64,000 nucleotides of DNA from Pseudomonas eucalypticola (GTDB lineage Bacteria > Pseudomonadota > Gammaproteobacteria > Pseudomonadales > Pseudomonadaceae): NCBI RefSeq assembly GCF_013374995.1, contig NZ_CP056030.1, forward strand, positions 1,086,501 through 1,150,500, in the 5' to 3' direction. Every line of letters begins with the position of its first letter. Positions within the stretch are counted from its first letter, which is position 1. The notes beneath the pieces are model-generated. The model saw only the letters and a list, made by a program, of their open reading frames with translations. It ran no database searches and was not told the origin of the DNA. This document shows, piece by piece, positions 42,109 to 44,186 of the stretch. The position numbers were made by a program, and so were the translations under genes.

Positions 42109-42129
42109 TGCGCTGGCGGTTACGGCTTG

Positions 42130-42510
42130 GCGTCGGATATGTACTCAGCCTGAAAGGCTACGCTTCTAGATGGATCGCACGCATATCCAATGGGTTGGGC
42201 GCGCCCACCGACGGTTTCGCCCTTACGGCGAGTCACTTTTTGGCAGACGCCCCAAAAAGTAACCAAAAAGGGCTCGCCCCTGCTGGGGCCCTGCGCTGCG
42301 CTCCGGGTACCCACCTTCCGGCGCCAACCAGGGGGCAAACGGCCCCGACTATAGAAGCGTGCCGGGGCCGTTTCCTCGGCTAAAGCCTCGGGCCCTGCGG
42401 GCAGCCCCCTGGTCGACGCCGGAAGGTGGCCCAGGCGCTTAACGGGGCGGCACGTCAAGAGCAAGATCAAAAGCCACAGCAAAAGCAAAGGCAAAAGCTA
42501 AGAGCCAAGG
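42130..42510 (+). repeat. Arm A of the composite repeat
   Basis: Starts with GGATATGTACTC and a mirrored GCACGCATATCC, then ACTTTTTGG/CCAAAAAGT hairpin (about 42233-42260). Next comes a nested structure: outer arms 42312-42336 and 42404-42428 pair at 23 of 25 bases, enclosing an ACGGCCCCG/CGGGGCCGT hairpin (42339-42347, 42363-42371). It ends with GGCCCAGGCGCTTAACGGGG and a short tract of about five hexamers (AAAAGC type, about 42470-42500). Confidence 0.8.
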
Positions 42511-42609
42511 CGGAAGCTAACACTTGGCTGAAGTGCGTCGACGCTCGCGAACTGCGTTCTTGTAGAGAAAGCCGATCTCAAGGTTGGGGTTTTTGCTGGC
42601 CTTTGATCC

Positions 42610-43020
42610 TGCTTTTGATGTTGCTGTTGCTGTTGCTGTTGCTGTTGCTGTTGCTGTTGCTGTTGCTGTTGCTGTTGCTGTTGCTGTTGCTGTTGCTTTT
42701 GACGTGCCGCCCCGTAAAGCGCCTGGGCCTCCTTCCGGCGTCGACCAGAGGGCAGCCCGCAGGGCCCGAGGCTTTAGCCGAGGAACGGCCCCGGCACGCT
42801 TCTATAGCCGGGGTCGTTTGCCCTGTGGTCGGCGCCGGAAGGAGGGAACCCGGAGCGCAGCGCAGGGCCCCAGCAGGGGCGAGACTTTTTTGCTTACTTT
42901 TTTTGTCGTTTGAAAAAAAGTGAGCCGGCGTAAGGCCGGAACCGCCAGTTTGCGCACCCTGTGCAATGGATATGCGTGCGATCTTATTAGCAGCGTGGCT
43001 TTTCAATTCGAGTACATATC
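42610..43020 (-). repeat. Arm B of the composite repeat with (GTTGCT)13
   Basis: Inverted relative to A. It opens with exactly thirteen GTTGCT units (42620-42697), then the GACGTGCCGCCCCGTAAAGC junction, the nested hairpin core, the CAGCAGGGGCGAG block and a variant ACTTTTTTTG/AAAAAAAGT region, ending with CAATGGATATGCGTGCGATC and GAGTACATATCC. Confidence 0.8.
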
Positions 43021-43034
43021 CAAGGGGGTGGCGG

Positions 43035-43450
43035 CCCGGCTGGCGGTTTCGCCCTTACGGCGAGTCACTTTTTGGCAGACGCCCCAAAAAGTAACCAAAA
43101 AGGGCTCGCCCCTGCTGGGGCCCTGCGCTGCGCTCCGGGTACCCACCTTTCGACGCCGACCAGGGGGCAAACGGCCCCGGCTATAGAAGCGTGCCGGGGC
43201 CGTTTCCTCGGCTGCCGCCTCGGGCCCTGCGGGCAGCCCCCTGGTCGGCGCCGAAAGGCGGCCCAGGCGCTTTACGGGGCGGTACATCAAAAGCAAGATC
43301 AAAAGCCACAGCAAAAGCAAAGGCAAAGGCAAAAGCAAAAGCAAAAGCAAAGGCAAAGGCAAAAGCAAAAGCAAAAGCAAAAGCAAAAGCAAAAGCAAAA
43401 GCAAAAGCAAAAGCAACAGCAACAGCAACAGCAACAGCAACAGCCAAGAA
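43035..43450 (+). repeat. Arm C of the composite repeat with 24 hexamers
   Basis: Same orientation as A. The core hairpin here is perfect (ACGGCCCCGGC mirrored by GCCGGGGCCGT, 11-bp stem). The tract 43301-43444 is 24 hexamers: AAAAGC and AAAGGC mixed, then five AACAGC at the end. The mixture indicates local duplication of sub-blocks. Confidence 0.8.
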
Positions 43451-43529
43451 CCACGGCGGAAGCCAACACTTGGCTGAGGTGCGCTCCCGTAGAGAAAGCC
43501 GATCTCAGGGTTGGGTTTTTCGCTGGCTT

Positions 43530-43885
43530 TTGATCCTGCTTTTGATGTTGCTTTTGCTTTTGCTTTTGACGTGCCGCCCCGTAAAGCGCCTGGGCCTCCT
43601 TCCGGTGTCGACCAGAGGGCAGCCCGCAGGGCCCGAGGCTTTAGCCGAGGAACGGCCCCGGCACGCTTCTATAGCCGGGGCCGTTTGCCCTATGGTCGGC
43701 GCCGGAAGGAGGGAACCCGGAGCGCAGCGTAGGGCCCCAGCAGGGGCGAGACTTTTTTGCTTACTTTTTTTGTCGTTTGAAAAAAAGTGAGCCGGAGTAA
43801 GGCCGGAACCGCCAGTTCGCGCACCCTGCTCAATGGATATGCGTGCGATCCTATTAGCAGCGTGGCTTTTCAATTCGAGTACATA
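43530..43885 (-). repeat. Arm D of the composite repeat, short tract
   Basis: Inverted, close to B base for base after the tract (offset 867 bp), but the hexamer run is only about three or four units (43545-43568). Ends with the same GGATATGCGTGCGATC and GAGTACATATCC blocks as B. Confidence 0.8.
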
Positions 43886-43894
43886 TCCAAAGGG

Positions 43895-44165
43895 GTGGCG
43901 GCCCGGCTGGCGGTTTCGCCCTTACGGCGAGTCACTTTTTGGCAGACGCCCCAAAAAGTAACCAAAAAGGCCTCGCCCCTGCTGGGGCCCTGCGCTGCGC
44001 TCCGGGTACCCACGCAGCCCCCTGGTCGGCGCCGAAAGGCGGCCCAGGCGCTTAACGGGGCGGTACGTCAAAAGCCAGATCAAAAGCCACAGCAAAAGCA
44101 AAAGCAAAAGCAAAAGCAAAAGCAAAAGCAAAAGCAAAAGCAAAAGCAAAAGCAAAAGCCACGAT
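43895..44165 (+). repeat. Arm E of the composite repeat, internally deleted, 13 hexamers
   Basis: Same orientation as A and C, but the segment from the outer left stem through the inner hairpin is missing: after GGGTACCCAC the sequence jumps to GCAGCCCCCTGGTCGG. The tract 44082-44159 is 13 hexamers, all AAAAGC except one CACAGC. It ends about 25 bp before the RDD gene stop. Confidence 0.8.
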
Positions 44166-44186
44166 AGAAGCTAGCGCTTGGCTGCG

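Follow-up and report, generated by a model that had tools for sequence, protein, structure and literature searches.

A dispersed, paired intergenic repeat of Pseudomonas whose arm core covaries as a pseudoknot with a mirror third strand

An array of alternating inverted repeats in Pseudomonas eucalypticola belongs to a dispersed, paired element whose arm core, judged by compensatory change between copies, covaries as an H-type pseudoknot, with a third strand that mirrors the purine strand of the adjoining stem. The array was found in a stretch of 64,000 nucleotides (the window; NZ_CP056030.1, positions 1,086,501 to 1,150,500). We tentatively propose, at somewhat less than even confidence, that the element is non-coding and that RNA read across an arm from tail to head folds as a triple-helix pseudoknot and acts as a 3′ module. 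The array sits between two convergent ORFs and spans window positions 42182-44159, with its five arms in the order A(+) B(-) C(+) D(-) E(+), as follows.

41005..42066, + strand: flanking ORF, which we take to be LptG-like
42135-42188 and 43835-43888: spacers similar to the B/C head spacer (arm alignment)
42182..42455, + strand: arm A (type I), in head-to-tail orientation as written; the predicted RNA is the opposite strand
42218-42230 and 43917-43929: hairpin H1, other type I copies (arm alignment)
42232-42271 and 43931-43970: S1 hairpin and third strand, other type I copies
42456..42498, + strand: hexamer tract of A, 7.2 copies (Tandem Repeats Finder)
42610..42701, - strand: hexamer tract of B, 15.3 copies (Tandem Repeats Finder)
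42702..42974, - strand: arm B, type II (repeat search and arm alignment)
42885-42924 and 43752-43791: S1 hairpin and third strand, type II copies
42925-42939 and 43792-43806: hairpin H1, type II copies (arm alignment)
42968..43021, no strand: B/C head spacer, delimited by GGATATG and CATATCC (arm alignment)
43015..43287, + strand: arm C, type I (repeat search and arm alignment)
43050..43062, + strand: hairpin H1 of arm C (arm alignment)
43064..43103, + strand: arm C copy of the S1 hairpin and third strand (arm alignment)
43288..43444, + strand: hexamer tract of C, 26.2 copies (Tandem Repeats Finder)
43526..43569, - strand: hexamer tract of D, 7.2 copies (Tandem Repeats Finder)
43570..43841, - strand: arm D, type II, with one H1 pair broken relative to B
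43882..44068, + strand: arm E (type I), shortened by an internal deletion of 86 nt (arm alignment)
44069..44159, + strand: hexamer tract of E, 15.2 copies (Tandem Repeats Finder)
44187..44762, - strand: flanking convergent ORF, presumably an RDD-type membrane protein

The alternating arms with hexamer tracts that an earlier note on this DNA had described are real, as a repeat search recovers direct repeat families at spacings of 832 and 867, inverted arms of up to 238 nt that are 82-83% complementary, and the tracts themselves, for which Tandem Repeats Finder gives about 7, 15, 26, 7 and 15 units where 5, 13, 24, 4 and 13 had been counted; arm and tract numbers are those of the assembled sequence. 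Slippage, which had been offered as the source of the differences in tract length, is plausible. The ACTTTTTGG hairpin is present in arms A, C and E, and its counterpart in B and D is a T7/A7 variant. Arm E has indeed suffered a loss, although not exactly of the segment between the outer stem arms: the 86 nt removed include the left outer-stem arm along with both inner hairpins, and the right stem arm is kept. Compared with dinucleotide shuffles, arm C has the better predicted fold in all 200 cases for each strand, with z of -6.6 for the minus strand and -5.2 for the plus strand. Long ORFs also run through the array on both strands (42063-44167), with the tracts read as poly-QK, KS, AK or L, and these may be mistakenly annotated as proteins.

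Alignment of the arms resolves two diverged types, I (A, C, E) and II (B, D), with 92-99% identity within a type (second-locus arms included). Between types, identity is 83-87% where both arms are full-length and 79-81% where the truncated arm E is involved; for the window arms by themselves the corresponding figures are 84-87% (A and C against B and D) and 80-81%. Type I S1 reads GTCAC-T5-GG..CC-A5-GTAAC and type II S1 reads CTCAC-T7..A7-GTAAG, and the differences between types are compensatory both in H1 (CGCC/GGCG in I, CGGC/GCCG in II) and in the outer S1 pair (G-C in I, C-G in II). The repeat unit in the window is a tail-to-tail pair of one type I and one type II arm. Because the alignment separates two types, A-B and C-D are tandem copies of one heterodimer and E is the start of a third, so that local growth, as reconstructed from this alignment, is by tandem duplication of a convergent pair. 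The multiplication by inverted duplication suggested earlier is not supported: what recurs across the family is the inverted pair itself, and here that pair has been tandemly duplicated.

Searching the P. eucalypticola genome with arm C returned two places, the window array and a second locus at 5,333.2-5,334.3 kb, where the arms run II, I, II, I, II with the outer ones damaged, between what we take to be a sodB-like ORF and a GGDEF/EAL ORF. At this second locus, the type I arms share 98-99% identity with arm C and 93% with arm A, and the former figure fits recent exchange or movement. A covariance model of the arm core (R1; 82 positions, built from 25 sequences) finds 10 matches at the two loci and one chance-level match elsewhere in the genome (E 0.51). 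Since the same alternation is seen at the second locus, and convergent pairs occur in many other genomes, the pairing is unlikely to be an assembly artefact. We likewise consider it very improbable that the array is functionless, the product of nothing more than local duplication and microsatellite slippage or else of an error in assembly; tandem duplication of the pair is visible and the long hexamer tracts are accessory, but the pair recurs well beyond the window and its core covaries.

The core consists of hairpin H1, hairpin S1 and the third strand, and in many of the 199 unique cores the S1 loop pairs with the bases just after the third strand, forming a helix that we call S2. Compensatory changes are found in S2 (GCAT/ATGC versus GGAT/ATCC, and AAGAGCCC/GGGCTCTT versus AAGAACCC/GGGTTCTT), and its length exceeds that of every shuffle, whether S2 is scored unanchored (3.99 versus 3.55 bp, maximum 3.75 of 300 shuffles; 179 pairs) or anchored (mean 3.27 versus 2.44 bp, maximum 2.78 of 500 shuffles; 147 unique pairs). 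Among the 147 unique cores scored with anchoring, S2 reaches at least 3 bp in 89 and at least 4 bp in 52, and falls below 3 bp in 58. The shuffles ignore relatedness, and the more independent set is that of the 41 unique class-level cores, which gives 3.59 versus 2.24 bp (maximum 2.71 of 2000), with at least 4 bp in 21. In the window, type I arms offer GCCC/GGGC for S2 and type II arms only GAC/GTC. Where cruciforms or structured RNA had been suggested in general terms, a more specific fold is supported, a pseudoknot with a mirror third strand.

Hoogsteen triples require a mirror third strand. Where S1 is asymmetric, the third strand mirrors its purine strand, as in AAAGAAAA/AAAAGAAA, AAGAGAAA/AAAGAGAA, AGAAAA/AAAAGA and AAAAGAAA/AAAGAAAA. 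Anchored scoring yields 13 distinct mirror cases, 0 direct cases, 3 ties and 4 palindromic stems, with two of the 13 mirror rows being sub-registers of stems already counted, which leaves about 11 independent ones. Exact mirrors account for 7 of 16 asymmetric pairs, as compared to a mean of 1.2 and a maximum of 6 in 1000 rounds of random dealing, and no exact direct copies occur among the same 16. When an earlier scoring was based on the longest common substring, 13 cases came out as mirror, 3 as direct and 6 as ties; we read the three direct cases (L140; L247 with L251; L247) as an effect of where the stem was cut. The lengths of the S1 and third-strand runs are also correlated (r 0.66, n 188). 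The family thus shows the feature that generally characterizes intrastrand triplex motifs, a third strand mirroring the purine strand, and at the level of sequence this is a triple-helix signature. A switch in which the third strand would compete for the 3′ strand of S1 was considered and rejected on the anchored scores, because the competing hairpin would need a direct repeat and a mirror was found.

The palindrome domain of the arm matches the Rfam family TwoAYGGAY (RF01731): in one set of 19 loci, 12 hold 21 matches, of which 13 reach the gathering score, and in a second set of 20 loci, 3 hold 4 matches, of which 2 reach it. All 25 of these fetched-locus matches lie on the tail-to-head strand and 15 reach the gathering score, two of the 25 having been counted twice, as L063 and L239 are the same G080 copy. 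Across three Pseudomonas-genus genomes (G017, G060 and G133), 135 of 145 TwoAYGGAY matches adjoin a core in the predicted place and on the predicted strand at gaps of 4-59 bp, 1 could belong to either of two cores and 9 lack a core among those listed, the comparison covering 150 of 168 core matches; 144 of the 145 exceed the RF01731 cut-off (43 bits). The orphan TwoAYGGAY RNA is thereby placed, in these three genomes, as a domain of a dispersed and often paired element. The window copies gave no RF01731 match among the matches listed at E up to 10, and an Rfam search of the window returned nothing relevant.

A mismatch in S1 points to the same strand: it is C.A on one strand (170 versus 2, with 158 of the 170 at one position) and is therefore G.U on the opposite, tail-to-head strand. 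The best fold of arm C keeps S1 and H1 on the minus strand and lacks S1 on the plus strand. Fold energy itself was rejected as a means of choosing the strand, because, of the -11.2 kcal/mol by which the RNA strand is favoured, shuffles reproduce -10.0, so that the advantage is mostly one of composition.

The copies could instead act mainly as a CsrA/RsmA sponge through the TwoAYGGAY hairpins, with the pseudoknot merely stabilising the sponge RNA, an explanation that we judge improbable. The TwoAYGGAY matches of L264 read ACAGGGAUGU, which we set against what we take to be the CsrA consensus, and Rfam clan CL00106 includes RsmY as well as TwoAYGGAY. CsrA binding has been proposed for TwoAYGGAY (PMC4333381), and the family is tabulated as probably an RNA, with an unknown role (PMC2864571). 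However, the window arms lack GGA hairpin loops (in the arm C fold) and a TwoAYGGAY match, and have nevertheless kept H1 and S1.

The main rival to an RNA fold is that the functional form of the element is DNA, with single-stranded arms adopting an intrastrand triplex and cruciform when the DNA is replicated or moves, as has been proposed for the G/C-rich TMECO repeats, such that RNA folding is incidental. The mirror rule suits DNA triplexes as well, the element is a dispersed DNA repeat, and the TMECO repeats (PMC4666352) share the pyrimidine-purine-purine order and include five E. coli cases that are inverted pairs of type A and type B. We nonetheless regard a DNA form as unlikely, though to be taken seriously, given that TwoAYGGAY matches are confined to one strand, that the S1 mismatch is G.U on that strand and falls mostly at one position, and that the TMECO pattern has no crossing S2 helix.

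Beyond P. eucalypticola, R1 has matches in 135 of 149 genomes of the genus (E 0.01), in 90 of 369 of the class (E 0.001) and in 58 of 398 of the phylum (E 1e-4); six of these 58 fall outside the class, and the P. eucalypticola genome is counted in each set. Among the best 80 of 118 matching stretches, the named records are all Pseudomonas except for one Atopomonas. The dispersed intergenic repeat with Pseudomonas relatives that had been guessed at is in this way borne out, with a distribution far wider than anticipated. Most genomes of the genus hold multiple copies, while occurrence in the class is scattered; some genomes carry about 100 copies (99 in G080, 118 in G060), a sizeable unexplained share of their intergenic DNA. 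The unit is again a tail-to-tail pair with arms of about 270 nt each: in G080, 44 convergent pairs, most of them 636-679 bp apart, take up 88 of the 99 arms, with 0 divergent and 0 same-direction neighbours within 2.5 kb where about 3.5 neighbours are expected by chance. Among the 150 listed cores of 168 in G017, G060 and G133, neighbours are convergent in 48 cases, divergent in 0 and same-direction in 3. Just 6 of 21 arms are paired in G029. Long hexamer tracts follow 30 of 216 Pseudomonas-set arms (at least one of them a run of N) versus 5 of 216 flanks, and 0 of 34 class-level arms, so the tract was rejected as a defining part of the element. At one locus (L011, 6915-7010) a type II head joins the tract directly, as if a deletion had fused the third strand (AAGCAAAAG) to the hexamers.

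The distribution of copies also bears on mobility. Near-identical G080 copies lie in unrelated flanks, and among the G080 copies listed, twenty align up to the GGATAT/ATATCC end with unlike flanks beyond it. The window locus lacks the element in 12 of 24 same-genus relatives with flank matches, where the flanks are 18-244 bp apart versus about 2.1 kb in the window; the remaining 12 have the second flank at another place or on another contig. Near-identical copies at unrelated sites that are absent from the loci of relatives are the pattern of MITE-like elements. For one G080 copy (L224), relatives have empty loci with unalignable junctions, and this single empty-site comparison revealed no clean target-site duplication. 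Plasmid and phage collections contained no match to arm C at E 1e-5.

Palindromic, extragenic, species-specific repeats in inverted pairs could also represent an oversized REPIN, that is, palindrome pairs moved by a REP-associated tyrosine transposase of the Y1 family, but this seems to us a very poor prospect. Neither the P. eucalypticola genome nor 39 of the 90 core-bearing genomes has a Y1_Tnp match at E 1e-10, and across 369 genomes Y1_Tnp is not associated with the core (51 of 90 against 133 of 279, p 0.15). A resident Y1 transposase (RAYT/IS200) is thus unsupported as helper, and a REPIN with such a helper is largely refuted by these counts, while a helper may have been present in the past.

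The gene pairs around the element are convergent in 48 cases, divergent in 19 and tandem in 65 (92 clusters dropped), tandem pairs being the commonest single context, and the sequence outside GGATAT is C-rich and G-poor (C 0.39, G 0.17; 194 loci). A few copies have unusual neighbours. Between the convergent arms of L068 (1956-2559, in G133) lie a C4 antisense RNA (69.8 bits), an a1/b1 target (58.5 bits) and a DUF6124 ORF, a phage-like regulatory cassette enclosed by the pair; a narK RNA adjoins a G080 copy (L063 1386-1456, also fetched as L239 64-134); and two cobalamin riboswitches flank the pair at L070 (485-705 and 1653-1862). Inside this last pair, which is of the A/T type, C/G-rich stretches at 1060-1290 resemble TMECO by eye, and one triplex repeat may here have inserted into another.

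Our best guess at function, drawn from the order and orientation of the parts, is that the element would serve as an orientation-independent 3′-end module of read-through RNA. The working molecule would be the tail-to-head RNA, on which the parts stand in what we take to be the order of the telomerase pseudoknot, whose third strand occupies the major groove of the stem; correspondingly, the U/C-rich loop would occupy the S1 major groove and form U.A-U and C+.G-C triples there. ENE triple helices shield RNA ends, and by analogy this suggests that the arm may do so as well. By geometry, whichever flank a transcript comes from, it meets the near arm in antisense and the far arm in the folding sense, followed by GGATAT and C-rich sequence, and it is this symmetry that suggests a 3′ module independent of orientation. 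Insertion in either direction would then provide a triple-helix 3′ region resisting exonucleases and, where the loops are kept, CsrA/RsmA sites too. The element would be a mobile unit, spread by an enzyme acting in trans, and in P. eucalypticola the pair would have been tandemly duplicated as its TwoAYGGAY loops decayed and its hexamer tracts grew. Bolder, and in our view doubtful, is the idea of a mobile repeat, found through much of Gammaproteobacteria and working as RNA, in which two 3′-end modules stand back to back, each combining a CsrA-binding TwoAYGGAY domain with a telomerase/ENE-like triple-helix pseudoknot, such that in either orientation the read-through mRNA of a neighbouring gene would gain a protected, CsrA-addressable 3′ end.

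Several known systems resemble parts of this element. The telomerase RNA pseudoknot and ENE triple helices share with its tail-to-head strand the order of parts and a U/C-rich third strand matching an A/G-rich stem, whereas the element is a bacterial dispersed repeat; the likeness is one of fold, with no sign of homology. REPs and REPINs are likewise extragenic, species-specific inverted palindrome pairs, but the arms here are about 270 nt and the genome lacks the Y1 transposase at the threshold given above. In several sister genomes, and in other genera as well, the arm's palindrome domain corresponds to TwoAYGGAY, although the Rfam model covers that domain only, without the pseudoknot core or the pairing of arms. 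TMECO/PIT repeats (PMC4666352) are intergenic and multi-copy, occur as inverted A/B pairs and place a hairpin before a mirror third strand; they differ in having a G/C-rich fixed pattern without an S2 helix or companion domain and in being proposed as DNA, and their pattern (CCCTCNCCCN3-6GGGNGAGGGN3GGGNGAGGG) has 0 matches in the window. The P. fluorescens repeat R178 (101 bp, with an 11-bp internal inverted repeat), along with R200 and R26 (PMC2718517), fits the core or arm in size and structure when compared by description only, and these repeats may belong to the family as arms. In searches of the open-licence PMC literature we found no paper with the core sequence and no description of the paired pseudoknot element. 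Fragments of the element are thus probably known already, and within these searches their assembly into one paired element with a predicted triple-helix pseudoknot looks new, offering a natural, sequence-diverse set of predicted bacterial triple-helix pseudoknots in which mirror covariation makes the triplex testable.
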